DNA of 64,000 nt from Magnetospirillum sp. ME-1 (GTDB taxonomy: Bacteria > Pseudomonadota > Alphaproteobacteria > Rhodospirillales > Magnetospirillaceae). Location of the stretch: positions 1,302,907 through 1,366,906 of the forward strand of contig NZ_CP015848.1 of NCBI RefSeq assembly GCF_002105535.1, written 5' to 3'. The notes under the pieces are model-generated. The model was not told where the DNA came from. It saw only the letters and a program-made list of their open reading frames with translations, and ran no database searches. Below are positions 13,797 through 46,203 of this stretch, in pieces. Every line of letters begins with the position of its first letter. Within the stretch, counting starts at the first letter, position 1. Both the position numbers and the translations under genes were made by a program.

Positions 13797-15476
13797 CTAT
13801 CCCTGGCGCATGTTGGCGAGGAACCCGCCCACCTCGGACCGCAGGTGACCGGCTTCCTCCACCAGTTCGTCGGCGGCCTTGAACATGCCCGACGCCATTT
13901 CGCCGGTGGCGATGGCGGCCTTGGACACGTCGGCGATGTTGCGGGTGATCTCGGCGTTGCCCGACGCCGCCTCCTGCACCGAGCGGACGATCTCGTCGGT
14001 GGCGGCGCTCTGTTCCTCCACCGCCGCCGCGATGGACGACACCACCTGATTGACGCGGTCGATGGTCAGCCCGACGCTGCGGATGGTGTCCACCGCCTCC
14101 TTGGAGATGGACTGGATGCCGGCGATCTGCTGGGCGATCTCGTCGGTGGCGCGCGCCGTCTGGTTGGCCAGGGTCTTGACCTCGCTGGCCACCACGGCGA
14201 AGCCTTTTCCGGCTTCGCCGGCGCGGGCCGCCTCGATGGTGGCGTTCAGGGCCAGCAGGTTGGTCTGGCCGGCGATGTCGTTGATCAGCTGCACCACCTC
14301 GCCGATGCGCCGCGCCGCCTCGGCCAGCCCGTCCATGGTGCCGTTGGCGGCGTGAATGCCGCTGACCGCCTCGGTGGTGATGGTGGCGGTCTCGGTGACC
14401 TGGCGGCTGATTTCCTGCACCGACGATCCCAGCTGCTCGGCGGCGCTGGCCACGGTGGCCACGTTGGCGGCCGAGTGCTCGGCGGCGTTGGCGACGGCCG
14501 AGCCCTGCGAGCTGGTCTGCTCGGCATTGGCCTGCAGGGCGTTGGACAGAGTGTGGACCCGGTCGATGGAGGTGCTGACCGTCGCCATGATCTTTTCCAT
14601 GGCTTCGTTGAAGGCGACGATCATCTGGTCGCGCCGCGCCAGCAGCTCGGCCTGCTGGTCGCGCTGGCGGCGCTGCTGGGCCTCCAGTTCGGCGGCCCGC
14701 GTCATGGAATCACGGAACACCGCCACGGCGCGGGCCATCTCGCCCACCTCGTCCCGGTTGTCCTGGGAGGGGATGTCGACCTCGGTGCTGCCCTCGGCCA
14801 GCCGTCCCATCACGCCGGTCAACTGGGTCACCGGCCGGGCGGTGAGCCGGGCCATGCCCAGCGTCACCACGATACCCACCCCCAGGAATACCGCCAGCAC
14901 CAGGAAGTACTGGGCCTTGGTGGAATGGGCGGCGGCGGTGGCGTCCCGGTAATCGTCGGCGGCCTTGGCGGCCGCCTGGTCGACCAGGTCCCGCAGCTTG
15001 GTGCGGATGCCGTCGTATTCCAGCTCGGTGGCGCCCATCATGGACAGCGCCGTCATGTGGTCGCTGGCATACATGTCCAGCACGTCGCCGGCGGCCAGGA
15101 TGTAGTCCTTGACCTGCTTGGCGACCGCCGGGTCGGACTTCATGGACTCCAGCAAAGCCTTGGACTTGTCGCCCAAGGCCTTCAAGTCCGCGCGCACCTG
15201 GGTGTCGAGGCCCTTGATGCGCTCCTTGTCCTCCTTGGCGGCCTGCCAGCCCAGAAGGCGATAGATGTTGGATTCGATGGTGGCCGCCATGCCGTCCAGC
15301 TCGGCGGCGGCGCGGCTGTTGGCGAAGGAAACGGTCACCATGCCTTCCATGGAGCGTTCCTGCCGGCTCATGGCCACATTGAACACGATGCCCAGCACCG
15401 CGATGCAGGCAACCAAAAGGAGAGGCGCTATGAAGAACTTGACGGTGATGCGGGCGTCGGCAATGCGGGCGAGCAC
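13797..15476 (-). CDS. Methyl-accepting chemotaxis protein (four-helix-type sensor, HAMP)
   Basis: 559 aa starting at GTG 15476. A first membrane helix (about 12-34), a helical periplasmic domain of about 155 residues (about 35-190) resembling the 4HB_MCP class, a second helix (about 190-212), HAMP, then the cytoplasmic signalling hairpin whose tip reads [20 protein letters not shown]. The C-terminus ends [10 protein letters not shown] with no CheR-tethering pentapeptide. No residues identify the ligand. Adapter and kinase genes (cheA, cheW) are absent here, so it is an orphan receptor. It is divergent from the receiver-PP2C gene with a 248-base gap. Confidence 0.93.
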
Positions 15477-15724: not shown

Positions 15725-16897
15725 GTGGACAGGCTGGACGAGGGGAGCATCGACCTGACCGGGGCCCGGGTTCTGGTTGTCGAGGACAACGAGATGAACC
15801 GGGTGTTCGCCTGCGCCGTGCTGGAAAGCATGGGGCTCCTGAACGTGGAGTGCGCCCGTAACGGCCGCGAGGGACTGGATAAGGTCGCGGCCTTCGATCC
15901 GGACATCGTGCTGCTGGACCTGATGATGCCGGTGATGAACGGCGAGGAGTTCCTGGTGGCCTTGCGGGCCGATCCGCGCTACCGCGCCCTGCCGGTGCTG
16001 GTCCTGTCGGCGGTGGTGGACCAGGCCACCCGCAATGCCCTGTTCGCCGCCGGCGCCAACGACTATATCGGCAAGCCCATCGATCGCCGGGAACTGGTGG
16101 CCCGCGTCGAGGTCCATCTGCGCAGCCACCTTGCCCTGGCCGATCTGCGCCGGTATCGCGACCGGCTGGCGGTGGATCTGCGCATGGCGCGCGGCATGCA
16201 GAACGCCCTGTTGCCCGGCCCGGAGCAGATGCGGGACATGCGGCAACGCTACGGCCTGGATATCAACGCGGTGTTCAGCCCTTCGTCCGAACTGGGAGGC
16301 GATCTGTGGGGGATGGCGCCGGTGGACGACCACCGTCTGGCGCTCTACACCGTGGACTTTTCCGGCCACGGCGTGGCGGCCTCCATCAACACCTTCCGCC
16401 TGCACCTGCTGCTGCAGGACCTGGACTCGCAGATGGGTGATCCCGGGGCGGCGCTGGAAAAAATCAACGTCTCCCTGAAGCAATTGCTGCCGCGCGGGCA
16501 GTTCGCCACCATGACCCTGGCGGTGGTCGATTGCGCCGCCCGGACCCTGTCCCTGGCCAATGGCGGCGGGCCGGCCCCCATCCTTGTGGGACCGGACGGG
16601 GCGCCGCGCCTGGTGGGCGGCGTCGGCTTGCCCTTGGGGATCAGCCAGACGGCCCGCTACGAGGTCGTGGACCTGCCGTTTCCGCCCGGGAGCCAATTGT
16701 CGCTGTACAGCGACGCCCTGACCGATGCCTCGGATTCCTCCGGCACGCCGCTGGGCGAGCAATGGGTCGTGGATCTGGTGCGCGAGGTGCTGACCGGCGA
16801 TCCCGCTGAAACCGTGGCGCGGGTCATGGCCGGGTTTGCCGTCCGCTCACCGGGCGAGTTCGCCGACGACGTCACCTGGGTTCAGCTGGTCGGCTGA
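15725..16897 (+). CDS. Response regulator with SpoIIE/RsbU-type PP2C serine phosphatase output
   Basis: 390 aa from GTG 15725 (CCAGGGAGGATGAT upstream); a longer frame to 15611 lacks a ribosome site. Residues about 13-130 are a receiver domain (VLVVEDNEMNRVF, phosphoacceptor in IVLLDLMMPVM, lysine in YIGKPID). A helical linker leads to a PP2C/SpoIIE domain (about 190-388) with the metal-binding motifs GGDLWG, DFSGHGVAAS, SDALTD and DDVTW. Such proteins dephosphorylate STAS-domain anti-sigma antagonists when the receiver is phosphorylated. The gene converges on, and overlaps by 16 bases, an anti-sigma-type kinase gene whose operon also encodes a STAS protein, so all partner-switch components are together. 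Confidence 0.92.
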   Translation: MDRLDEGSIDLTGARVLVVEDNEMNRVFACAVLESMGLLNVECARNGREGLDKVAAFDPDIVLLDLMMPVMNGEEFLVALRADPRYRALPVLVLSAVVDQATRNALFAAGANDYIGKPIDRRELVARVEVHLRSHLALADLRRYRDRLAVDLRMARGMQNALLPGPEQMRDMRQRYGLDINAVFSPSSELGGDLWGMAPVDDHRLALYTVDFSGHGVAASINTFRLHLLLQDLDSQMGDPGAALEKINVSLKQLLPRGQFATMTLAVVDCAARTLSLANGGGPAPILVGPDGAPRLVGGVGLPLGISQTARYEVVDLPFPPGSQLSLYSDALTDASDSSGTPLGEQWVVDLVREVLTGDPAETVARVMAGFAVRSPGEFADDVTWVQLVG

Positions 16898-17625
16898 CCT
16901 TCAGTCAGGGGCGGCAGGCTAAAGCGCATGGAAATACGGCGGCCGTGACGGCTGAAGGATACCCGCTGGCACAGGGCGCGTATCTGTCCGATGCCCCGCC
17001 CGCTGCAGGCTTGCGGAGCGACGGGAAGGGAAATGGCGGGCGGCTGAAAGCCCCGGCCGCGATCCTCGACCCTGATCACCAGATGGCTTTGGTTCCAGTC
17101 GGCGGCAATGGTCACCGGCCGGCGGGCGTAGCGCGGGTCGGCCAGACGTTGCTGCATGGTCTGGGTGAAGAGGCTGAGCCCCTCGCGGCTGCCGCGCAGG
17201 CGCCCGTCGAGGCAAAGGTTGCCATGCATGACGGCGTTGCTTACCGCTTCCTGCAGGGTCAGGCGCAGGTCCATGGCCAGGGGCTCGACCCGCGGCAGCC
17301 GCTGAACCAGGGCGGCGACCATCACGCCGACCAGATCATGGCTGACGGTGGCAAGCGTGGAGGCGCGCAGCAGCAGCCGGGCCGGCAGGCGTTCCAGCCC
17401 CTCGTGGGGGGAGGAACAGTCCAGGTCGATGGCCCAGGACGCCGGTGGACTGAGAATATCCTCGGCATCGGCGGTGCCGCCGCCTTCGAACAGCACGACG
17501 CAATGCCCGTATTCATCCGTGCGCAACGGCAGCAGCCCGGCGGCGGCCAGGCGGCCGAACCGTCCGAGGCCGCGCTTGCCGGCGGTCCGGTTCACAATAA
17601 TCGGCAATGTATTGGCCCGGCTCAC
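16882..17625 (-). CDS. RsbW-like anti-sigma serine kinase (HATPase_c) with N-terminal extension
   Basis: 247 aa from GTG 17625, overlapping the STAS gene stop (GTGA). The GHKL ATPase motifs are present: N-box QEAVSNAVMHGNL near residue 130, G1 VEDRGRGFQPP near 192, and G2 GRGIGQIRALCQRV near 220. RsbW-type kinases phosphorylate a STAS antagonist and hold a sigma factor or other client. At 247 residues it is longer than the usual 140-160, with about 100 unrecognised N-terminal residues and an insertion between N-box and G1. No sigma factor gene is adjacent, so the client is unknown. Confidence 0.85.
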   Translation of the reverse strand: MSRANTLPIIVNRTAGKRGLGRFGRLAAAGLLPLRTDEYGHCVVLFEGGGTADAEDILSPPASWAIDLDCSSPHEGLERLPARLLLRASTLATVSHDLVGVMVAALVQRLPRVEPLAMDLRLTLQEAVSNAVMHGNLCLDGRLRGSREGLSLFTQTMQQRLADPRYARRPVTIAADWNQSHLVIRVEDRGRGFQPPAISLPVAPQACSGRGIGQIRALCQRVSFSRHGRRISMRFSLPPLTEGQPTS

Positions 17626-17927
17626 TTGAACTCGAACAGGGTTTTGAAGGCGGCGCGTTCCATGGCGGACGCCACGGGCCCGCTGGCGCCCTGGATGGAG
17701 ACGTTGAGGTTGCGGCTTTGCGATGCGTCGTAAATGTGTATGAACAGGCTCATGCCGGTGGAATCGATGAAGCTCAGGCCGTTCAGGACGATCGCCAGGC
17801 TGGTCACCTCCCGTGCGGCCTCCAGCTCGGCCAGGACCTTGGGAAAAAGCGGAGCCTGGGCGAAGGTCAGCGTCCCACTGATGGTCAGCTGGGCCGTGTT
17901 GCCGTTGCTCTTTAGCGCGTATTGCAT
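17622..17927 (-). CDS. STAS-domain anti-sigma factor antagonist
   Basis: 101 aa from ATG at 17927, a single STAS domain. Beta-alpha pattern with the conserved loop NGLSFIDSTGMSLFIHIYD; Ser56 in D-S-T-G is the expected phosphorylation site. In partner switching, the unphosphorylated form binds the RsbW-like kinase and frees its client; a PP2C phosphatase reverses phosphorylation. It lies 18 bases after a chemoreceptor gene and overlaps the kinase gene, so chemoreceptor, antagonist and kinase are probably one transcript. Confidence 0.9.
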   Translation of the reverse strand: MQYALKSNGNTAQLTISGTLTFAQAPLFPKVLAELEAAREVTSLAIVLNGLSFIDSTGMSLFIHIYDASQSRNLNVSIQGASGPVASAMERAAFKTLFEFK

Positions 17928-17945
17928 GTCGAATTCTCTCGATTG

Positions 17946-19634
17946 CTAGGATGCCCGGATGCTGGTGAGGAAGGTGTCCACCCGTTCGCGAAGAGTGTTG
18001 GCGCGCCCCGCGACATCCTTGGCCGTGCCAAGCACGTCGTCGGCGATCCGCTCGGTCTGCTCGGCGGCCTGATTGACCCCCAGGATATTCGAACTGACTT
18101 CGCTTGTCGCCTGGGCAACTTGCTGAACGTTCTCGGCGATCTCGCCGGTGGCTTCGTCCTGCTGGTGGACGGCGCCGGCGATGCCCGACGACGCGTCCCT
18201 GATCCGCTCGATCACCGCCGAGATGGAGGCGATGGCGGCGACGGCGTCACCGGTGACCTTCTGAACCGTGGAAATCTGGGTGGCGATCTCGTCGGTGGCG
18301 CGTGCCGTCTGGTTGGCCAGGGTCTTGACCTCGTTGGCGACCACGGCGAAGCCCTTGCCGGCGTCGCCGGCGCGTGCCGCCTCGATGGTGGCGTTCAAGG
18401 CCAGCAGATTGGTCTGGGCGGCGATGTCGTTGATCAGCGCCACCACGGCGCCGATCTTGTCCACCGCCTGGGCCAGGCTGTTGATCAGCGCGGTGGTTCG
18501 CTCGGCCTCGATGGAGGCGTCGCCGGCGATGGTGACCGAGACGCCTACGCGCTGGCTGATATCCTCGCCGGAAATGGCCAGTTGCTCCGCCGAATTGGCC
18601 GCCGTGCGCATGTTGACGGCGGTTTCCTCGATGGCCGAAGCCACGGCGGTCGCCTGGGTCGAGGCGCCCTGGGCGGCTTCCGACAGCACCCGCGAGGTGG
18701 ATTCCAGCTGGCCGGCGGTGGCGGCCATGGCCTGCAGGGCTTCGGTGACCTCGTCGTTGAATTCCCGCAGAAGGTTGTCGACCACGCGGGCGCGCCTGTC
18801 CTTGGTCCACTCGGCCTCGCGCTGCTCGGCCGCCAGCTGCTCGGCGCGGATCAGGCCTTCCTTGAAGATCTCCACGGTGCGGGCCATGACGCCCACCTCG
18901 TCCTTGCGGGACTGGGCGGGAACCTCCATGTGAAAATCCTTCTTGGACAGCCCGTCCATGACCAGGGAGAGGTTGACCAGCGGCTTGGTGATGCGGCCCG
19001 CCACCAGCATGGACAGGGCCAGGACCAGAAGGGTGAGGGCCACGACGCCGCCGCCGAAATAGAATGCGGTGGACCAGAAGGCGGCATCCACGTCGTCCAG
19101 GTAGATGCCGGTGCCCACCACCCAGCCCCAGCCGGAGTTCAACTTGACGTAGGAGACCTTGCGCACCGGCTTAGGCGAGCCCGGCTTGGGCCAGTCGTAG
19201 TAATGGAAATCGGCGCCCTTGGCCTTGACCAGTTCGTTCATGCGCACGAACAGCGGATGACCGGTGGCATCCTTGAGGTCGCTGACATCCTTGCCGTCCA
19301 GTTCCGGCTTGATGGGATGCATGACCATGCGCCCGGTCAGATCATGGATCCAGAAGTAGTCGTTGTCGCCGTAGCGCAGGGCGGCGATGTCGCGCCTGGC
19401 CGCCGCCTTGGCCTCGGCCTCGGGCAGGCGGCCGGCCTTGGCCTCTGCCTCGTAGAAGGAGACGATGCCGGCGGCGCTGTCGACCAGGTCCTTGACCTTG
19501 GCCTTGCGCCCGCCCAGCACCTCGCCGTCCAACACCTGAAGGGCGCCAAGGAAGATCAGGCACATGCCGACGAAGGCCGCCGCCACGATCAATCCGATCT
19601 TTGTTCCGATCCGCCTGTCATCAAGCCAAGCCAT
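17946..19634 (-). CDS. Methyl-accepting chemotaxis protein with single Cache (Cache_2) sensor
   Basis: 562 aa from ATG 19634, which has GAGG six bases upstream; ATG 19640 is also possible, and a frame to 19706 is less likely. After one membrane helix comes a Cache_2-type periplasmic domain (residues about 35-185) with the typical [20 protein letters not shown] and [16 protein letters not shown], then a second helix, HAMP and the signalling hairpin ([20 protein letters not shown]). The family senses small organic acids, but no ligand can be read here. It is the first gene of an apparent operon with STAS and RsbW-like genes, which is unusual for a receptor. Confidence 0.93.
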
Positions 19635-20688: not shown

Positions 20689-21111
20689 CTAGCGCCACTG
20701 CTCGACCTTCATCTTGCCCTTCATCTTGAGGTCGGTTTCCAGGATGTGGTTCATCAGCCAGTGATTCAGGAAGGCCGACATTTCGCCGGCGGCGACCCCC
20801 AGGTCGGCGTATTGCCCGGCGTTGAACTTGGCGATGTAGTCGCCCAGCGTCTTGCGGAGCGCGGCGTGCTGGCGCTTGTTCTCTTCCAGCCCGTCATACT
20901 TGGCCACCGCCTGGATGTATTCCTCGCGGGCGAAGTGGTCGTAGGCGTAGAGCTGAAGGCGTTCGAGCGTCACCTGGATGGCGTGCTTGTCGACGCCGTC
21001 CGGGGCCTTGGCCTTGGCTTCAAAGTCGTTGATCAGTCCGATGAGTTCCTTGTGATCGGCGTCGATCTCGATGTCGCCGACCTTTAACGTTTCATCCCAA
21101 GCAATGGCCAT
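20689..21111 (-). CDS. Bacteriohemerythrin (single-domain O2-binding protein)
   Basis: 140 aa from ATG 21111. The di-iron ligands of hemerythrin are visible in order: DADHKELIGLIND, AYDHFAREEYIQ, RQHAALRKTL and LNHWLMNHILETD. Single-domain bacteriohemerythrins bind oxygen reversibly and are thought to deliver it or buffer it in microaerobic bacteria. The N-terminal AWDETLKVGDIEIDADH is canonical. It is monocistronic, 190 bases from the divergent LysR gene. Confidence 0.95.
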   Translation of the reverse strand: MAIAWDETLKVGDIEIDADHKELIGLINDFEAKAKAPDGVDKHAIQVTLERLQLYAYDHFAREEYIQAVAKYDGLEENKRQHAALRKTLGDYIAKFNAGQYADLGVAAGEMSAFLNHWLMNHILETDLKMKGKMKVEQWR

Positions 21112-23108: not shown

Positions 23109-23324
23109 GATCATCTCCTGTGCAATAGATTATGTTGAATTTTTGTCTTCGTCCATCGCATGCGGCAAGCGAAACAATTTCACCCGTGCATGAGCTTGTT
23201 GGAGTTTTTCTTGTATTGTGTTGGCTGCGCGTTGCGGGCAAGGCTGGCTTGCGCATTGTTGGCTTTACCCATCTAGGTGGTTACCGCTAATACTAAGGAA
23301 TAGGGTGTTGAGTGGGGGTATGTG
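23109..23324. other. AT-rich divergent intergenic region
   Basis: This 216-base gap between the leftward hydratase and the rightward chemoreceptor is AT-richer than its surroundings and must hold both promoters. I could not assign reliable -35/-10 pairs, and I see no RNA gene or small coding sequence. Confidence 0.35.
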
Positions 23325-25289
23325 ATGGCTATGGCGGTATCCTTGCGCGTGCGGTTGCTGGCTATTCCGGCGGTGGCTGCTCTGGGGCTTCTGTTCGTCG
23401 CCGTGGTGACCGTGCTGTCGGTGCGGGAGGCGCAGCTGGAGGTGAGGCGGGTTCAGATCCACTCGGTGGTGGAGGGCGCCGTCAAGCTGGCCGAGGCCTT
23501 TCATGCCAAGGCGAAAAAGGGAGAGATGAGCGAAGCCGAAGCCAAGGCCGCCGCGCTTCAGGCCATCGGGATGCTGCGCTTCGACGGCGACAATTATCTC
23601 TGGGTCAACGATCTTGACGGCAACCTGCTGATGCATCCCTTCCGCGCCAAGGAAGTGGGAAAGAGCATGCTGGAGGTGAAGGATTCCGCCGGCAAGTTCA
23701 TCTACCGCGCCTTCGTCGAGGCGGGGCGCGCCGGTGGCGGGCTCGTGGATTACGTGGGGCGCCGCCCCGGCGCCGATTCCTATGATTCGCCCAAGCTGGC
23801 CCAGATCATTCCCTATGCGCCTTGGGGCTGGGGGATCGGGACCGGGGTCTATGTGGACGATGTGGAGGCGGTAACCCGTCAGGCCATGGTGCGGGAGGGG
23901 CTGATCGCCCTGGTCATCATCATCGTGGTGGCCGCCGTTTCCATCCTGATCGGGGTGCGCATCGGCAACCGGGTCCGCCGCCAGGCTTCAGTGATGCTGC
24001 GCCTGGCCGAGGGCGACCTCGACGTGGAGGTCCATCAGGGCGGCCCCCGCGACGAGATCGGCGAGATGGCCGAAGCCATGGCGGTCTTCAAGCGCAACGC
24101 CCAGGAAGCCCGCCGTCTGGAGGCCGAGGCCCGGATGGAGCAGGACGCCCGCAACCGCCGCCAGGAGGCCATCGAGCGCCTGACCTCGGATTTCAACCGC
24201 AGCGTCGAAGGGGTGCTGCACTCGGTATCGGCGTCCACCACCCAGTTGCGGGGCGCGGCGCAATCCCTGACCCATGTGGCCGACGGCACCAGCCGCAACG
24301 CCTCTTGCGTGGCCGCCGCCGCCGACCAGGCTTCGGCCAATGTGGAGGCCGTGGCCGCCGCCGCCGAGGAGATGGCGGCGTCCCAGGGCGAAATCGCCGC
24401 CCAGGTGGCGCGCTCCACCGAGGTGGCCGAACGGGCCGCCGCCGACGTGACCCGCATCGACGAGATCGTTCAGGGGCTTTCGGCCGCTACCGCGCGCATC
24501 GGCGACATCGCGGGCATCATCAACGACATCGCGTCGCAGACCAACCTGCTGGCGCTCAACGCCACCATCGAGGCGGCCAGGGCGGGCGAGGCGGGAAAGG
24601 GGTTTGCCGTCGTCGCCAACGAGGTCAAGCATCTGGCCACCCAGACGGCGCGCGCCACCGACGAGATCGGTGTCCACATCCAGGAGGTTCAGGCTGTGGG
24701 GCGGTCCACCGCCGAAGCGGTGCGCGCCATCGGCGAGACCATCTTCGCCGTACGGCAAACCGCCACCGCCATCGCCTCCGCCGTCGAGGAGCAGGCGGCC
24801 GCCACCGCCGAGATCGCCCGCAACGTTCATGAAGCCTCGGTGGGGACCCGCGGTGTCACCCAAACCATTTCCGAGGTCAGCGACGGGGCGGGCACCACCG
24901 AACGCTCGGCCAAGCAACTGTTCGACACGGCCAATGAGCTGACCGCCCGGACCAATGAGCTGACCGGCGACGTCACCGATTTCCTGCTGGCCCTGCGCCA
25001 GAGCGGCAATCGCCGCCGGTTCGAGCGCTTCGCCATGGACCTGCCGGCACAGGCGGAAGGACGGCCTTGCCGGACGGTGGACATCTCGGCCGGGGGCGCC
25101 TGCCTGGAAACCGACCTGGGCCTGCCTTCGGGGGCATCCGTCAATCTGGTCATCGACGGCGAGCCGGTTCGCGCCCGGATCGTCGTGATCATGGACGGCA
25201 AGACCCATGTGCAGTTCGCCCTCGACGAGGCGACGCAGTCGCGGTTGGTCGCCCGGCTGAGCATCTGGCGGGAACGGGCGGCCGCCTGA
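23325..25289 (+). CDS. Methyl-accepting chemotaxis protein with Cache_2 sensor and C-terminal PilZ domain
   Basis: 654 aa from ATG 23325 (AGTGGGGG upstream); GTG 23322 is possible. Membrane helix about 10-32, Cache_2 sensor about 35-185 ([34 protein letters not shown]), second helix, HAMP, then the signalling hairpin ([20 protein letters not shown]). The last 80-odd residues form a PilZ domain: RRRFERF gives the R-x3-R type arginines and [12 protein letters not shown] the D-x-S-x2-G motif that bind cyclic di-GMP. The protein should therefore link second-messenger level to receptor output. It is an orphan receptor with no che genes beside it. Confidence 0.93.
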
Positions 25290-32286: not shown

Positions 32287-32793
32287 ATGAACGCGTTGGA
32301 GAGCCAGATCGAGGCGGAGATTCCCGGGCTGCGGCGCTACGCCCGCGCCCTGTCCGGGAATGCCGCCCAGGCGGACGACCTGGTCCAGGATTGCCTGGAG
32401 CGGGCTCTCGCCCGGCTGGCCCTGTGGCGCCGCGACGGCAATCTGCGGGCCTGGCTCTTCACCATTTTGCGCAATGTCTGGATCGACGAGTTGCGGCGGC
32501 GCAAGACCCGCCCCGATTCGAGCGCCATGGACGAGTCGTGCGATATGATGGCCAGCGCGCCCGGCCAGATGGACCGACTGGCGGTGCGCGATCTGGCCGC
32601 CGCCCTGGCCCAACTGGCCCCCGAGCAGCGCGAGACGGTGCTGCTGGTGGGGCTGGAGGGCATGAGCTACGCCGAGGTCGCCGCCGTCACCGGCGTGCCC
32701 ATGGGCACGGTGATGTCGCGCCTGAAGCGCGGCCGCGACCGCCTCGCCCAGCTCATGCACGGCGGAGAGACCGCCATCCGGAGAGTGAAATGA
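32287..32793 (+). CDS. ECF-type RNA polymerase sigma factor
   Basis: 168 aa from ATG 32287. Region 2 is visible as LRRYARALSGNAAQADDLVQ and DCLERALARL, then LRAWLFTILRNVWIDELRRR; region 4 as LAQLAPEQRETVLLVGLEGM and YAEVAAVTGVPMGTVMSRLK. The length is typical. It overlaps the next gene (ATGA), which encodes a membrane protein of anti-sigma type, so this is a standard sigma/anti-sigma pair. Confidence 0.92.
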   Translation: MNALESQIEAEIPGLRRYARALSGNAAQADDLVQDCLERALARLALWRRDGNLRAWLFTILRNVWIDELRRRKTRPDSSAMDESCDMMASAPGQMDRLAVRDLAAALAQLAPEQRETVLLVGLEGMSYAEVAAVTGVPMGTVMSRLKRGRDRLAQLMHGGETAIRRVK

Positions 32794-33554: not shown

Positions 33555-33736
33555 CGCTTGTCCGATCGAGCCTGAGGCGCTCCCCCCGGGCCGCTGCCCA
33601 AGGCCGGGAGGACGGCGATGTCATGAATTCTTCATGCCGGGGGGCAGCATTCCCGAATGTGCATAGGCTGATTGCGACGAAATGTGATAAAAGGCGCTTC
33701 TAAAATGCCTGTCATGACCGAGGGGGGATGGGTACC

Positions 33737-40233: not shown

Positions 40234-40974
40234 GAACTGCGCCCTGACCCAGGCGGCGGCCTCTTGGGCCGATTGGACGCTTGGGCCAGCGGGGCGGGGT
40301 GGGCGGCGGCGCATGATCACCGGCAGGCCCAGTTCGGCGGCGGCGGCCAGCTTGGCCCGGGCGGCGGCTCCGCCGCTGTTGCGGCAGACGATGGTGTCGA
40401 TGCCGTGGGCCAGCAGCAAGGCCCGTTCGCCCGCCGGGGTGAAGGGGCCGCGATCGGCCACCAGGGCGAAGCGGGCCGGAGCGGGCCGGGGCGGGGCCTC
40501 CTCGGCGAAGCGCAGCAGGAACCACAGGTCGTCCAGTCCGGCGAAGGGCTCCAGTTCCTGACGCCCCAAAGCCAGGAAGGCGCGCCGGGACAGGCGGCGC
40601 AGGATGGGAACCGCCTCATTCCAGTCGTCCACCTCGGTCCAGCGGTCCGTCGGTCCGGCCACCCAGGCCGGGCGTTGCAGGCGCAGCCACGGAAGGCCCA
40701 GGGCGGCGCAGGCATGGGCGGCGGTCCAGCCCATGCGGCGGGCGAAGGGGTGGGTGGCGTCGACCACCATGGTGACGGCTTCGCGCCGCAGATAATCGGC
40801 CAGTCCGCTTTCGCCGCCAAAGCCGCCGATGCGGCATTCTCCCGGGGGGAGGCGGGGCGACGCGGTCCGTCCGGCCAGCGAGGAGACGACCCGCAATCCC
40901 TGGATTCCGTCCAGGATGCCGGCCAGATCCGCCGCCTCGGCGGTGCCGCCCAGGATCAGCAGCCCGGCCGTCAT
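40225..40974 (-). CDS. cobK: Precorrin-6A (cobalt-precorrin-6A) reductase
   Basis: 249 aa from ATG 40974, overlapping the preceding receiver gene stop (ATGA). CobK/CbiJ reduces the macrocycle using NADPH. Features: LLILGGTAEAADLAGIL at the N-terminus, VVSSLAGRTASPRLP, the GGFGGESGLADYL segment, VVDATHPFARRMGWTAAHAC and VADRGPFTPAGERALL. Length is normal. With CbiD nearby, cobalt-precorrin is the probable substrate. It shares an operon with a response regulator, which is odd for a biosynthetic enzyme. Confidence 0.94.
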   Translation of the reverse strand: MTAGLLILGGTAEAADLAGILDGIQGLRVVSSLAGRTASPRLPPGECRIGGFGGESGLADYLRREAVTMVVDATHPFARRMGWTAAHACAALGLPWLRLQRPAWVAGPTDRWTEVDDWNEAVPILRRLSRRAFLALGRQELEPFAGLDDLWFLLRFAEEAPPRPAPARFALVADRGPFTPAGERALLLAHGIDTIVCRNSGGAAARAKLAAAAELGLPVIMRRRPPRPAGPSVQSAQEAAAWVRAQFSA

Positions 40975-41381
40975 CGTCCGTCGGCCAGGGGATCGGGACG
41001 CTGGGGACGCGGCGACAGGGCGATTCCGGCGGCAATCAGCTTGGTCGCCAGGATCTCGACGTCGAAGGGCTTCATGATGTATTCGTCCGCCCCCTCCGCC
41101 AGGGCCCTGGAGATGTGCTCCAGGTCGCTTTCGATGGTGCACAGCACCACCTTCGGGGCGCTTCCCGCCGGCATGGCCCGCAGGGTCTTGAGGAAGGTGA
41201 AGCCGTCCATGACCGGCATGTTCCAGTCCACCAGGATGAGATCGGGCATCCGGCCGGAACAGACGCCCAGGGCGTCCTCGCCGTTCTCGGCTTCGCTCAC
41301 CGTCAGGCCCAGTTGGGCCAGCATGCGGCAATGGATGGTGCGGATCAGCTTGGAATCGTCAATGACCAGGCAGTGGCTCAT
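40971..41381 (-). CDS. CheY-like response regulator overlapping cobK
   Basis: 136 aa from ATG 41381; a TTG seven codons upstream is less likely. Receiver domain with MSHCLVIDDSKLIRTIHCRM, phosphoacceptor in DLILVDWNMPVMDG, KVVLCTIESD and YIMKPFDVEIL with the conserved lysine. A short basic tail follows. The family resembles CheY-type stand-alone receivers near chemotaxis and kinase genes. Its stop overlaps the cobK start, so expression of cobK is translationally coupled to it. The large hybrid kinase gene upstream on the same strand is 70 bases away. Confidence 0.9.
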   Translation of the reverse strand: MSHCLVIDDSKLIRTIHCRMLAQLGLTVSEAENGEDALGVCSGRMPDLILVDWNMPVMDGFTFLKTLRAMPAGSAPKVVLCTIESDLEHISRALAEGADEYIMKPFDVEILATKLIAAGIALSPRPQRPDPLADGR

Positions 41382-41451
41382 GATGGGGGCGGTCTCGACC
41401 AATGGGAATTGTCTCTATATGGGGGGCGCGGGCGGTGGATCGTAGACCCGG

Positions 41452-43365
41452 CTACAGGCCGAATTGCCGGATCAGCTCGGCCTTGGTCTGGTCCCATTCC
41501 CGGCGCAGGCGGCCGATCATCCGCGCGACCCCGTCCGCGTCGCCGGCCTGCAGGGACTGGCCGATGGCAATGGCCAGATTTTCCAGCCAGGGGGTGCCCG
41601 AATAGGCCGCCAGCCCTTTCAACTCGTGGACGGCCGCGCCGACAAGCCGGGTATCGCCATCGGCGGCTTCCAGGCGCGAGCAAACCTCCTCGCCGCTTTC
41701 CATGAAGGTCCGGGCCAGGATGGCGGCGTTTTCGTTGCCCAATTGCTCGGCCATGCGGGCGAGGGAATAGCCGCCTTCGCCTTCGCCCGCCGGCGGCGAC
41801 TGGCGGATCAGCACCTCGGCAATGGTCGAGCGCAGCAGCAGCGGGTCGATGGGCTTGGCCACATGGGCGTCCATGCCGGCCGCCCGGCAGCGGGCAATGT
41901 CTTCCACCATGGCGTTGGCGGTGAGCGCGATGATGGGCATGCGGGCCACCGGACCCGGCATGGCGCGAATGCGCCGTGCCGCCTCGGGGCCGTCCATTTC
42001 GGGCATCTGCATGTCCATCAGGATCAGGTCGAAATTCTCCTGGCGCAGCTTGTCGAGGGCCTCCAGGCCATTGCCGGCCACGGTGACCCGATGGCCCTCG
42101 CGGCTGAGCAGGCCGGCCGCGACCTTCTGGTTGAAGGCATTGTCCTCGGCCAGCAGAATCGACAGGGGGCGAAGCGCAGGCGGGTCGCATCGCGACGATT
42201 CGACGGCCGGGGCGGCGGCCGGGGGGTAGTCAAGGCGGAACCAGAAGCGGCTGCCGAGGCCCTTGGCGCTATCGACGCCGATGGTTCCTCCCTGGGCCTC
42301 GACCAGCTTCTTGCAGATGGCCAGGCCCAGGCCGGAGCCGCCGAAACGCCGGCTGATGGAGGCGTCGGCCTGATGGAAGGGCTGGAACAGCGAGGCGGCC
42401 TGATCGGCATCCAGGCCGATGCCGGTGTCGGTCACCGAGAATTCGTAGCCGTCGGCCTCGGCCACGCGGGCAAGGCGGAGCACGATGCCGCCCTGGGCCG
42501 TGAACTTGATGGCGTTGCCGATCAGGTTGATCAGCACCTGACGCAGGCGGGCGCCATCGCCGCTGACCCAGCCGGGCAGGGGGGCCGAGGCGTCGAGCGA
42601 CAGGCTGAGCCCTTTTTCCGAGGCGCGGCCGTGCAACAGCGACACCACCCCCTGGACGGTGGCGCCCAGGTTGAAGGGGGCCGTCTCGAACTGGACACCG
42701 TCGGCCTCCAGGCGCGAAAAATCGAGGATATCGTTGATGATGCCCAGCAGGGCGGCGCCGGAATCATGCACCACCGCCAGCTTCTCGCGGTCCTCGGCGG
42801 CCAGGGGGCGGTCCATCAGCAGATGAACCATGCCGAGGATGCTGTTCATGGGGGTGCGGATCTCGTGGCTCATCACCGCCAGGAACTCGCTCTTGGCGCG
42901 TTCGGCGTCGCGGGCCTGGGTGACCGCCTTCTGCAGATCGCGGTTCTTCAGCGCCAGTTCGGCATGGGCCTCGGCCAGGGCGTTCTGGAAGCCCTTGAGC
43001 GCGCTGATATCGACGGCGATGGAATACTTGGCGCGCCGTCCGTCGAACCAGGTGAGCATGGTTTCGCGCAACTGGTACCAGCGGTCGTCGCGATCATTGA
43101 AATGCTCGAATTCCAGCGAGGTCTCCACCTCCTGGGCCACCATCTCCGGCATCTTGCAGAAACGGCAGGGATGGGTTTGCTGGTAGATGGCCTCGTAGCA
43201 CTTGCGGCCCTGCACCACGCCGACCTTCTGGCGCATGGCGCGGTTGGTGCAGATGATCTCGTGGGTGGCGAAATCGGCCACGTAGACGGGAAACGGAATG
43301 ACGTCGAAAATCACTTCCCAGTAGCCGGGGTCGCCGGGATTGAGACCTGGGAAGGGGGACGTCAT
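41452..43365 (-). CDS. Hybrid sensor kinase: Cys-containing PAS, HisKA, HATPase, receiver, Hpt
   Basis: 637 aa from ATG 43365, no membrane segments, so cytoplasmic. The PAS domain (about 15-125) contains Y-W-E-V-I-F-D-V-I-P-F-P and a cysteine pattern IICTNRAM, GRKCYEAIYQQTHPCRFC. Kinase: phosphoacceptor in FLAVMSHEIRTPMNSILGM, ATPase motifs LINLIGNAIKF, VTDTGIGL and GGSGLGLAICKKLVE. Receiver with ILLAEDNAFNQKVAAGLL and LILMDMQMPEMDG, and a C-terminal Hpt with VHELKGLAAYSG. This is a complete phosphorelay in one chain. A shorter paralogue with the same PAS lies at 44384. Confidence 0.93.
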   Translation of the reverse strand: MTSPFPGLNPGDPGYWEVIFDVIPFPVYVADFATHEIICTNRAMRQKVGVVQGRKCYEAIYQQTHPCRFCKMPEMVAQEVETSLEFEHFNDRDDRWYQLRETMLTWFDGRRAKYSIAVDISALKGFQNALAEAHAELALKNRDLQKAVTQARDAERAKSEFLAVMSHEIRTPMNSILGMVHLLMDRPLAAEDREKLAVVHDSGAALLGIINDILDFSRLEADGVQFETAPFNLGATVQGVVSLLHGRASEKGLSLSLDASAPLPGWVSGDGARLRQVLINLIGNAIKFTAQGGIVLRLARVAEADGYEFSVTDTGIGLDADQAASLFQPFHQADASISRRFGGSGLGLAICKKLVEAQGGTIGVDSAKGLGSRFWFRLDYPPAAAPAVESSRCDPPALRPLSILLAEDNAFNQKVAAGLLSREGHRVTVAGNGLEALDKLRQENFDLILMDMQMPEMDGPEAARRIRAMPGPVARMPIIALTANAMVEDIARCRAAGMDAHVAKPIDPLLLRSTIAEVLIRQSPPAGEGEGGYSLARMAEQLGNENAAILARTFMESGEEVCSRLEAADGDTRLVGAAVHELKGLAAYSGTPWLENLAIAIGQSLQAGDADGVARMIGRLRREWDQTKAELIRQFGL

Positions 43366-43383
43366 GCTGTGGGCCGTTCCGGA

Positions 43384-43758
43384 TCAGGTGGGCCGGGCCA
43401 TGACCTTGTCGATCATGTCCGAGAGCTTCTCGATGCGGACCGGCTTCAGCACATAGCCCTTCGCGCCGGCATCCAGCGAGTCGATCACCATCCGCTCCTG
43501 GCCGTGCGAGGTGACCATGATGATGCGGGCGGCGGGAAACTCACCGATGATCCTGGCGGTGGCCTCGACCCCGTTCATGTCCGGCATGGTGATGTCCATG
43601 GTGACCAGATCGGGATTGCTGGCGCGGTAGGCGTCCACGGCCTTGGCGCCGGTGCCGGCGGTTCCAACCACCTGGTGGCCCATTCCTTCCAGCATCAAGG
43701 TCAGCTTTTTGACTGCGATAAGAGAATCGTCGACGATGAGGACTTTAAGCGCTGACAT
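43384..43758 (-). CDS. Single-domain response regulator (paralogue 1 of a twin pair)
   Basis: 124 aa from ATG 43758. Receiver motifs: LKVLIVDDSLIAVKKLTLML, LVTMDITMPDMNG, MVTSHGQ and VLKPVRIEKLSDM. By hand alignment about 86 of 124 residues equal the receiver at 45548-45922, with the C-terminal third almost unchanged. The pair resembles the CheY-like proteins that work with CheX phosphatases. It lies 18 bases upstream of the hybrid kinase gene and 10 bases after the CheX gene, so all appear to be one transcript. Confidence 0.92.
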   Translation of the reverse strand: MSALKVLIVDDSLIAVKKLTLMLEGMGHQVVGTAGTGAKAVDAYRASNPDLVTMDITMPDMNGVEATARIIGEFPAARIIMVTSHGQERMVIDSLDAGAKGYVLKPVRIEKLSDMIDKVMARPT

Positions 43759-43768
43759 CGGTTCGGCC

Positions 43769-44290
43769 CTAGGATTGGTAGTTCAGGTGGTCATCGAACA
43801 GGTCACGGGGACCGACAAAACTTACGCTGACGATACCTCTTTCGGTACGTATCCGCATGTTTGCGAATACTGCGTTCTTTGGTCGATGAATGCAACGCGC
43901 ATCCTCGATGATCACAGGTGGAGAGAGCGCGATACTCTCCTCGATGATCTGGAAATCGGTGGTACAGAGCCCAAGGATGGTGTTGACGATTTCCGCCGCC
44001 GTCTCGCGCCGGTACAGGTCTTCCTCGCCGGACGGGATCTCGATGTCGGCGGTGACGCGGGTGTACAGGGCCTCGACCAGCGAGTTCTCGAAGCTGAAGG
44101 CGATCAGCAGGCTGATGGGGCCGCCCAGTCCGGCGATCACCGTCATGTCGTGAAGGTGAAGCTTGGTGACGTCGCAATCAAACGTCTCCGCCCCATCGAC
44201 GGCGATCACCGCCTCGGCGGCCAGCACCTCCCTGGTCTGCCCGAGGATGGACGCCATGACACGGGGGATGATGGTTTTGTTGAAGGTCAT
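43769..44290 (-). CDS. cheX: CheX-like CheY-P phosphatase
   Basis: 173 aa from ATG 44290, where the CheX-like start FNKTIIPRVMASILGQTREV begins; a frame to ATG 44344 would add 18 residues without family support. The catalytic E-x2-N helix is seen in RRETAAEIVNTILGLCTTDF, after GLGGPISLLIAFSFE. CheX dephosphorylates receiver proteins. It sits between two receiver/kinase sets and could serve both. Translation in the cytoplasm is expected; there is no signal or membrane segment. Confidence 0.85.
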   Translation of the reverse strand: MTFNKTIIPRVMASILGQTREVLAAEAVIAVDGAETFDCDVTKLHLHDMTVIAGLGGPISLLIAFSFENSLVEALYTRVTADIEIPSGEEDLYRRETAAEIVNTILGLCTTDFQIIEESIALSPPVIIEDARCIHRPKNAVFANMRIRTERGIVSVSFVGPRDLFDDHLNYQS

Positions 44291-44383
44291 TCCTTGCCAA
44301 TCCTTGACTAGACCCGCCTGACGGGGGGACGACGATACTGCCATGAATTCTCAACCCGCGCGATCCCTTCCCGCCGCGGGATT

Positions 44384-45526
44384 TCAGGCCTTTTCCACGG
44401 GGAGGCTGATGGTGAAGACCGAACCGCCGGCTGAACCGGGTTCGACCATGATTCGTCCGCCGTGGCTTTCGGCGATACGCTTGACGATGTAAAGGCCCAG
44501 TCCCGCGCCTTTGGTGCCGGTCGCCGAGGGGCAACGGTAGAACTTCTCGAAGATCCGCTCGACCTCGTCGGCGGGAATGCCGGGGCCGTTGTCGGTGACG
44601 ATGATGCGCGCTTCGGCCGGGCCCCGTTCCAGGGCGATTCGGACGGGGCCGCTGCCGGGTGGCGAGTATTTGAGGGCGTTATCCAACAGGTTGGAGACCG
44701 CGACCCGCAGCAAGGCCTGGTCGGCACAAGCCGTGACGGGGGCGTCGATGGTCAGGTGAAGGCGTTCCGGCCCGGCCAGTTCGGTCTTTTCCCGCAAGAT
44801 GTCCTCGATCAGCGGCGCCAGGTCCAGGGGGCTTGGCTGCAAGGCCGCCACCGCCGAGGTGAAGCGCTCGTCGGCGAGACAGACGTCGATCAGGTCGGAC
44901 ATGCGGTGGACGGCGCGATCGATCTTGGCGATCTCCTCCCTGGGCTCGGGCTTGTCGCCGACATAAAGCTCGAGAACCTGGGCCGCTCCGCCGATGATGG
45001 ACAGCGGCATGCGGAATTCGTGGGAGACCATGGCGAGGAAATTACGCTGGTTGAGGGTGACCTCCTGCTCGGACAGCAGGGCGCCGTTCAGCCGGCGGTT
45101 TTTCAGCGCCAGTTCGGCGTGGGCCTCGGCCAGGGCGTTCTGCACTTCCTTCAGTGCGCTGATGTCCACGGCGATGGAATACTTGGCCCGGCGTCCGTCG
45201 AACCACGCCACCATGGTCTCGCGCAGTTGGTACCAGCGGTCGTCGATATCGTTGAAAAGCTCGAATTCCAGGTAATTGGTGCCGCAGGCCGCGATACCTT
45301 CCAGTTCCTGCATGCGGCAGAAGGTGCAGGGTTCGGCCTGCTGGTAGATGGCGGCATGGCACTTGTCGCCGGGCTTGACGGCCACCCGCTGCATCATGGC
45401 GCGGTTGGCGCAGATGATGTCGTAGGTCTTGCTGTCGGCCACGTAGACCGGAAAAGGGATGACGTCGAAGATGACTTCCCAATAACCGGGATCGCTTGGA
45501 TTGCCACCGGGAAAAGCTGCCGACAT
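44384..45526 (-). CDS. Cytoplasmic PAS histidine kinase, paralogue of the hybrid kinase
   Basis: 380 aa from ATG 45526. The PAS part matches that of the kinase at 41452 (GYWEVIFDVIPFPVYVAD, ICANRAM, GDKCHAAIYQQAEPCTFC, YSIAVDISALKEVQNALAEA). HisKA: FLAMVSHEFRMPLSIIGGAA; ATPase: VSNLLDNALKYSPPG, VTDNGPGIP and KGAGLGLYIVKRIAESHGG. It ends after the ATPase and lacks receiver and Hpt parts, so its phosphate presumably goes to the adjacent receiver at 45548. The gene is 93 bases upstream of cheX on the same strand. Confidence 0.93.
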   Translation of the reverse strand: MSAAFPGGNPSDPGYWEVIFDVIPFPVYVADSKTYDIICANRAMMQRVAVKPGDKCHAAIYQQAEPCTFCRMQELEGIAACGTNYLEFELFNDIDDRWYQLRETMVAWFDGRRAKYSIAVDISALKEVQNALAEAHAELALKNRRLNGALLSEQEVTLNQRNFLAMVSHEFRMPLSIIGGAAQVLELYVGDKPEPREEIAKIDRAVHRMSDLIDVCLADERFTSAVAALQPSPLDLAPLIEDILREKTELAGPERLHLTIDAPVTACADQALLRVAVSNLLDNALKYSPPGSGPVRIALERGPAEARIIVTDNGPGIPADEVERIFEKFYRCPSATGTKGAGLGLYIVKRIAESHGGRIMVEPGSAGGSVFTISLPVEKA

Positions 45527-45547
45527 CGATTTCTCGCCTGCGCCTCT

Positions 45548-45922
45548 TTAAGGGGCGCGCTCCATGATCCTGGCGATCATATCGGAGAGTTTCTCGATTC
45601 GCACTGGCTTTAGCACATAGCCCTTGGCGCCGGCGTCGAGCGAATCCATCACCATCCGCTCCTGGCCATGCGAGGTGACCATCATGATGCGGGCGGCGGG
45701 GAACTCGGCGACGATCTTCGCGGTGGCCGCCATGCCGTCCATGTCCGGCAGGGAGATGTCCATGGTCATCAGATCGGGGTGGTGCCGGCGATAGGCTTCG
45801 ATGGCGTCACGGCCGTTGGATACGGTGGCGATGACCTGATGGCCAAGCCCCTCCATCAACACCGTCAGCTTTTTGACCGTGATGATCGAGTCGTCGACAA
45901 TAATAACTTTTAGTGGAGCCAT
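45548..45922 (-). CDS. Single-domain response regulator (paralogue 2 of a twin pair)
   Basis: 124 aa from ATG 45922; a TTG two codons earlier is less likely because the ATG makes the length equal to its paralogue. Receiver motifs: LKVIIVDDSIITVKKLTVLM, LMTMDISLPDMDG, MVTSHGQ and VLKPVRIEKLSDM. First gene of the leftward signalling operon; the PAS kinase follows 21 bases later. It has no output domain, so it should act by protein-protein contact and be reset by CheX. Confidence 0.92.
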   Translation of the reverse strand: MAPLKVIIVDDSIITVKKLTVLMEGLGHQVIATVSNGRDAIEAYRRHHPDLMTMDISLPDMDGMAATAKIVAEFPAARIMMVTSHGQERMVMDSLDAGAKGYVLKPVRIEKLSDMIARIMERAP

Positions 45923-46203
45923 ATGCAAACCGGAAAGCTATTCGTATCTGTGGCTGTCGTGTCGCAGAATAGCAAAATATTGTTGAATGGAGCTGTTGGA
46001 TGCAAATGGAATTTCTTGCTGTTTTATGTTGGTATATTTCTGATTGAGAAGGCGGGCGTCAATGGATGTCCATGGTTGGGGCGAAAAAGAGAGGCCGGGT
46101 GTTGCCACCCGGCCTTGAAGTCTGGCTCGTGAAGGGAGACACAGCGATTCCGACAGAGGACTCGAATTTGCGGAATCGGAAAGCCGTCGAGAGCCGCCGA
46201 CGG
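45923..46203. other. AT-rich promoter region and acyl-CoA dehydrogenase 3' region
   Basis: 281 bases between two leftward genes. Positions about 45925-46060 are AT-rich and should contain the promoter of the receiver/kinase/CheX operon; no clear hexamers were assigned. The remainder holds the terminator at 46083-46115 and about 85 bases without any feature I recognise. Confidence 0.4.
46083..46115 (-). terminator. Rho-independent terminator of the acyl-CoA operon
   Basis: Read leftward, GGCCGGGTG and CACCCGGCC form a 10-bp stem with a GCAA loop, followed by CTCTTTTT. It lies about 90 bases after the acyl-CoA dehydrogenase stop. Confidence 0.82.

Follow-up and report, generated by a model that had tools for sequence, protein, structure and literature searches.

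The 64,000-nucleotide stretch of the Magnetospirillum sp. ME-1 genome analysed here (contig NZ_CP015848.1, positions 1,302,907 to 1,366,906; the window) carries a gene for a chemoreceptor (methyl-accepting chemotaxis protein, MCP), followed by genes for a single-domain STAS protein and an RsbW-like kinase; a gene for a response regulator with a PP2C phosphatase domain (receiver-PP2C) converges on the kinase gene. We find that this module is real and conserved and that receptor and STAS protein form its core pair, with kinase and phosphatase less often adjacent. As to its mechanism, we infer, tentatively, a chemoreceptor with a phospho-switch subunit of its own, the STAS protein serving as the dedicated partner of one receptor class. 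The observations beneath this explanation are the domains and intact motifs of the proteins, the conserved gene order, the restriction of the linked receptors to one clade and the linkage of every high-scoring receptor to a STAS gene.

Conservation of the receptor and STAS gene pair

The sequence-only reading that first described these genes named confinement of the arrangement to this strain as a refuting result, and this outcome did not occur. A contig scan with an alignment of 19 STAS relatives as query found 25 loci, in Paramagnetospirillum, Magnetospirillum and Terasakiella and in bins labelled Phaeospirillum, Magnetovibrio, Rhodospirillaceae, Rhodospirillales and Proteobacteria; several of them belong to the same genomes as the search of relatives described below and are not independent of it. 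By domain scan, an MCP lies directly upstream of the STAS gene on the same strand in 23 of the 25, the exceptions being one locus that has none (L111) and one whose contig starts about 120 bases upstream (L130). The kinase gene directly follows the STAS gene in 17 of the 25, and the receiver-PP2C gene converges on it in eight, two more loci (L128, L130) having a variant arrangement. Counted over the loci of the receptor type, the kinase adjoins the MCP–STAS pair in 21 of 29. Since adjacency is tightest for the STAS gene and rarer for kinase and phosphatase, we regard receptor and STAS protein as the core.

The host genome (4.55 Mb, a single contig) repeats the pattern. Its 12 STAS matches comprise nine single-domain genes, two sulfate permeases and one FliG, the last below the cut-off. 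For four of the nine the adjacent gene on the same strand is an MCP, and a fifth stands two genes away from one; chance would give roughly one MCP per 80 genes, a rough figure that assumes about 4,400 genes (54 MCP matches, 52 of them over the cut-off). MCP–STAS pairs without an adjacent kinase or phosphatase occur in this genome as well (L068, L071).

Could the genes be neighbours without a functional link, kept together through common descent of one gene block? Within the genus the module is indeed syntenic together with its surroundings, the second MCP, glutathione S-transferase (GST) and hemerythrin genes being present in all seven syntenic loci (the window and L079–L084) and fructose-bisphosphatase in six. 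The pair is nevertheless also kept at different sites, where neighbours and sensor domains differ, and within the genus it comes and goes with kinase and phosphatase. A STAS-type MCP is found in 13 of 17 genus genomes, that of the window included; all 13 have a kinase match above 100 bits and 12 a receiver-PP2C match above 280 bits (258.6 in G008), and in the four genomes without the MCP the best scores are 57–71 for the kinase and 193–199 for the receiver-PP2C. We therefore consider mere common descent very unlikely.

Farther afield, a phylum sample of 299 genomes gave 70 with a match to the kinase profile. In most of the 20 high-scoring loci examined among them, receiver, PP2C and kinase are fused in one protein and accompanied by a STAS gene; five of the 20 have an MCP immediately upstream of the STAS gene (L203, L206, L212, L218, L221). 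Adjacency of chemoreceptor and STAS genes is thus not confined to this order, but it is in the minority in the phylum sample. One locus there joins STAS and kinase domains in a single frame beside a receiver-PP2C gene (L202, 5854–6837).

The receptors themselves form a distinct class. The signalling regions of 15 STAS-linked MCPs served to build a profile, with which 60 related genomes were searched at an E-value cut-off of 1e-85, at most 49 candidates being scored per genome. A STAS gene followed immediately on the same strand in all 25 matches above 330 bits, and in none of the 26 matches from 314 down to 288 bits did one adjoin the MCP (the nearest exception is the 314-bit match in G003); these 26 are the next-best matches and not every MCP. 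The test is one-sided, because the profile was built from STAS-linked MCPs, and what it can tell is that, among the candidates scored, no MCP lacking a STAS gene reached such scores. In the adjacency comparison, most STAS rows of genomes without an MCP match were set aside, as were a few others.

Trees of 93 signalling domains, 49 of them from the host genome (four short MCP fragments and identical domains had been dropped beforehand), unite the 29 MCPs that stand beside this STAS type in one clade (29/29), with a support of 0.947 in FastTree and of 94/92 by bootstrap and Shimodaira–Hasegawa-like approximate likelihood ratio test (SH-aLRT); for the 28 MCPs without L125 the latter values are 100/99. 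The sensor domains of the clade include sCache_2, NIT and TarH/4HB types, and L074 has no recognised sensor domain. One clade despite such differing sensors means that the part which is kept is the cytoplasmic part. The hairpin tip of MCPs is the contact for CheA and CheW. Its consensus in the clade is conserved, nearly the same as in other MCPs, and the residues that distinguish the clade lie on both sides of it. Distances among the MCPs correlate with those among the STAS proteins (r 0.83, n=29) and the kinases (r 0.90, n=21), values that none of 2000 permutations reached in either comparison, although such mirror-tree correlations cannot separate contact from co-inheritance.

Proposed signal flow between receptor and switch

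The motifs needed for partner switching, which the earlier reading had listed as intact (PP2C metal sites, STAS Ser56, and the N, G1 and G2 boxes of the kinase), are confirmed by alignment. Ser56 is invariant in 27 of 27 aligned homologues; E126, N130, H134-G135, D188-G190-G192 and G211 of the kinase are kept in 21 of 21; the receiver Asp (D65) and Lys (K117) and the PP2C motifs GGD, D-F-x-GHG and SD are kept in 15 of 15 aligned receiver-PP2Cs, and the DD pair in 14 of these, the remaining row having a gap there. The set corresponds to the RsbV, RsbW and RsbU types: a STAS protein with a putative phospho-acceptor Ser, a GHKL Ser kinase with N, G1 and G2 boxes, and a phosphatase with PP2C metal-site motifs.

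The structural model of the kinase (mean predicted local distance difference test score, pLDDT, 89) has LvrC, SpoIIAB and RsbW as its best folds in Foldseek, which indicates an RsbW-like kinase with an N-terminal add-on of about 80 residues. The extension announced by the sequence-only reading thus exists, but it is shorter than the roughly 100 residues given there, as the RsbW-like core appears to start near residue 80 of the model. It varies among relatives, and L095 lacks it; that it might bind the client of the kinase was a conjecture of the sequence-only reading. A degenerate receiver was considered for this region, the top Foldseek match LvrC being described as a response regulator (we take it to be a receiver plus a GHKL domain), and was rejected when profile comparison with receivers gave a probability of 0.1.

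What could be the connection between receptor and switch? In the explanation that we tentatively prefer, the kinase would phosphorylate the STAS protein on Ser56, and the receiver-PP2C would strip this phosphate once a histidine kinase (CheA or some other) has phosphorylated the receiver of this phosphatase. Of the two states of the STAS protein, one would dock on the membrane-proximal part of the cytoplasmic stalk of the receptor and alter its signalling, so that, if the presumed direction of flow is right, the partner switch would pass an internal signal on to a chemoreceptor of the ordinary, CheA-competent kind. We take the STAS protein, not the phosphatase, to be the direct partner because its linkage is tightest, because the receptors have a special cytoplasmic part and because receptor–STAS pairs occur alone (L068, L071). 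A switch acting on the receptor is also the simplest scheme, since no output or client was recognised among the scanned neighbours of the module, which are a part of all its neighbours. With still more reserve, we hypothesize a receptor class with a built-in Ser-phosphorylation switch, in which kinase and phosphatase would set sensitivity through the docked STAS protein, either in addition to the control of a sigma factor or in its place.

The sequence-only reading had proposed another route: the receptor would act through a CheA array on the receiver-PP2C, and the STAS protein, once dephosphorylated, would capture the kinase and free a client, a sigma factor or other. Its view of the genes as one conserved module stands, and a receiver-PP2C/STAS switch within a chemosensory operon has a direct precedent in Shewanella che1, which contains two MCPs, cheA1 and CrsR/CrsA, and where Che1 has been suggested to act on RpoS (PMC9855816; statements from the literature, here and below, reflect the available portions of the cited papers). 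The receptor retains the canonical hairpin tip, and the genome encodes one CheA, recognised by H-kinase_dim, and a second frame that joins a CheW domain with a HATPase match. Both CheA-type frames, however, are encoded elsewhere in the genome and not at the locus; the same tip occurs in most of the receptors outside the clade, which have no STAS link; the link of the phosphatase to the receptor is looser than that of the STAS protein; and no client was found among the neighbours scanned. If CheA were the sole link, any CheA-competent receptor could feed the phosphatase, and a special receptor class would be unneeded; we think action of the STAS protein at the receptor itself likelier than a link solely via CheA to the phosphatase. 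The proposed flow is thus not favoured, given the tight tie between STAS protein and receptor, the separate receptor clade and the histidine kinases beside the receiver-PP2C in L091, and we hold it to be rather unlikely.

The locus L091 (3347–15373) consists of one gene run with an MCP, a STAS protein, the kinase, a hybrid histidine kinase, a receiver-EAL protein, a receiver-histidine kinase, a receiver-PP2C and a PAS kinase. Its hybrid histidine kinase and receiver-histidine kinase offer an alternative source of phosphate for the receiver-PP2C.

A more direct forward route would have the receptor array hold the STAS protein and release or expose it on a change of ligand, whereupon the kinase would be captured and its client freed. 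This scheme shares the linkage and clade evidence with the explanation that we prefer, and RbaV of Rhodobacter is itself the determinant regulator (PMC3999984). It requires an extra client, none being recognised among the scanned neighbours, and appears clearly improbable to us.

The STAS protein could also be a helper that binds CheA and shifts its choice of response regulator, with kinase and phosphatase tuning it, in the manner of CheS, the CheA-binding single-domain STAS protein of alphaproteobacterial che clusters (PMC12654446). The STAS gene of the window is paired with a receptor and is not part of a che operon, and the two CheA-type frames have no STAS match of the host genome within 5 kb, which makes such a role highly implausible. 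A GAF-PP2C/STAS pair about 6 kb from the main cheA (L077) was considered as a link and dropped, its STAS gene sitting among transporter-type genes as judged from reading the sequences.

Several points weigh against a dedicated receptor–STAS partnership. About 10 of the 25 high-scoring MCPs are rows of the profile itself and score highly by construction. Four of the 33 STAS-linked MCPs (L069, L071, L094, L098) fall outside the clade, and the linkage has therefore probably arisen more than once. Residues specific to the clade would be expected in any clade, the tip is so conserved that it gives no information, and the clade restriction could also follow from the copying of one ancestral gene pair without contact between the products. 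The receiver-EAL gene in the L091 run makes an output through cyclic di-GMP (c-di-GMP) possible there as well, and the targets of the partner switches tested in the literature, as far as the available portions describe them, are sigma factors, an anti-sigma factor or a diguanylate cyclase.

The locus in the window

Coordinates, strands, gap, overlaps and domains given by the sequence-only reading were all reproduced (Table 1). The MCP and STAS genes are separated by 18 bases (17928–17945), the STAS and kinase genes overlap by four (17622–17625), and the kinase and receiver-PP2C genes converge with an overlap of 16 (16882–16897). This last overlap is present in L081 and L083 and absent in L079, L080 and L082, and we give it no weight because it varies among relatives. 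Pfam matches above the cut-off are sCache_2, HAMP and MCPsignal in the receptor, STAS, HATPase_c_2, and Response_reg with SpoIIE. A promoter scan, weak for this genome, found no promoter between or inside the module genes, and a scan for terminator-like sites, likewise weak, found one, fewer than in shuffles. In G009 (L083, 6157–7804) the module receptor is called as two frames, and its STAS, kinase and phosphatase frames are whole.

Table 1. Features of the chemoreceptor–STAS module and the adjoining receptor gene, in window coordinates
Feature	Position	Strand	Remarks
Chemoreceptor (MCP)	17946..19634	(-)	sCache_2, HAMP, MCPsignal; 562 aa
MCP signalling region, basis for placing the receptor in the STAS-linked clade	18003..18662	(-)	Ordinary hairpin tip; clade-specific residues flank both sides
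Single-domain STAS protein, RsbV/SpoIIAA-like	17622..17927	(-)	101 aa
Codon for STAS Ser56, predicted phospho-acceptor	17760..17762	(-)	Phosphorylation presumed
RsbW-like kinase (HATPase_c_2)	16882..17625	(-)	247 aa
Kinase N-terminal extension, ~79 aa	17389..17625	(-)	Small alpha/beta region
Response regulator with PP2C (SpoIIE-type) phosphatase, convergent	15725..16897	(+)	390 aa
Second MCP, beyond the phosphatase gene	13797..15476	(-)	HAMP, MCPsignal; 4HB match below cut-off

The second MCP, which the earlier reading did not list, lies beside the receiver-PP2C gene in all seven syntenic loci and yet falls outside the STAS-linked clade. A hemerythrin-domain gene near the receptor (20689–21111) is kept in the same seven loci. 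The genes around the module are metabolic, translational and regulatory, with further MCPs. Apart from these MCPs, the earlier statement that no sigma factor or che gene is nearby is borne out by the frames scanned from 6806 to 31699, among which no sigma factor, cheA, cheW, cheB or cheR was found.

Farther from the module, the window holds an ECF-type (extracytoplasmic function) sigma gene with PhyR_sigma2 and Sigma70 matches (32287–32793), followed up to 33554 by a 254-aa frame without a Pfam match, with an MCP next at 33728. This sigma factor was considered as client of the switch and set aside, lying more than 12 kb from the module with other genes intervening. A cheX-like phosphatase gene (43769–44290) lies in a cluster (40971–45928) that also encodes single receivers and a hybrid kinase with Hpt. 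An sCache_2 MCP at 23322–25289 has a PilZ domain at its C-terminus (34.6 bits against a cut-off of 22.5), through which c-di-GMP might act on this chemoreceptor.

Relation to known systems

Chemosensory arrays and partner switches are usually viewed apart, Shewanella che1 being one of the few cases in which they are joined. With a receptor clade that retains its STAS partner whatever its sensor, direct contact between the two systems becomes testable. If the explanation preferred here is true, it would give a role to STAS genes with no sigma-factor client in sight. The joint inheritance of receptor, STAS protein and the two enzymes hints at a phosphorylation switch in some receptors, in addition to their usual link to swimming. 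Among the open-licence papers listed in our searches, none dealt with a clade of STAS-linked receptors in magnetospirilla. The combination of a chemoreceptor with a partner switch is not unheard of, as CrsR-CrsA, HsbR-HsbA, RbaVWY and a suggestion made for Campylobacterota attest.

Close in the build of the switch is RbaV-RbaW-RbaY of Rhodobacter capsulatus, where STAS, HATPase and receiver-PP2C are separate proteins, as they are here, the STAS and kinase genes overlap and no sigma factor is near; it is unlike the window in that a two-gene operon is described without a chemoreceptor and the receiver-PP2C gene lies elsewhere (PMC3999984). CrsR-CrsA of Shewanella oneidensis che1 shares co-transcription of STAS, receiver-PP2C and kinase domains with chemoreceptor genes (PMC9855816, PMC6482189), two MCP genes being in the same transcription unit (PMC9855816), but it has one fused receiver-PP2C-kinase protein, an operon with cheA, cheW and others, and RpoS as client (PMC9855816, PMC6482189). 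In the window these domains are divided between two genes; a fused form is found in the same genome, as one kinase-receiver-PP2C protein whose gene is flanked by a STAS gene and by that of an MCP containing a CZB (zinc-binding) domain (L070, 7198–11481). HsbR-HsbA(-HsbD, FlgM) of Pseudomonas aeruginosa is a partner switch near cheR/cheW-like and flagellar genes, but HsbR is fused and activated through HptB, and its clients are known (PMC5085249, PMC6482189).

CheS of rhizobia is a single-domain STAS protein tied to chemotaxis, but it is encoded within a che cluster and binds CheA (PMC12654446), whereas the STAS gene of the window stands outside any che cluster. In Campylobacterota, where a REC-PP2C-kinase occurs with a STAS protein and a chemoreceptor, the STAS target has been suggested to affect chemoreceptor conformation; the enzyme is fused, the phylum is another, and the available portions of the source contain neither an experiment nor an analysis of the receptor clade (PMC9239204). 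In the bipartite receptor CetB2-CetA2 of Magnetospirillum gryphiswaldense the partner is a PAS-FAD (flavin adenine dinucleotide) protein, and the available main text does not use the word STAS; the likeness lies in a partner that interacts with its MCP and is encoded together with it as a gene pair (PMC12442639).

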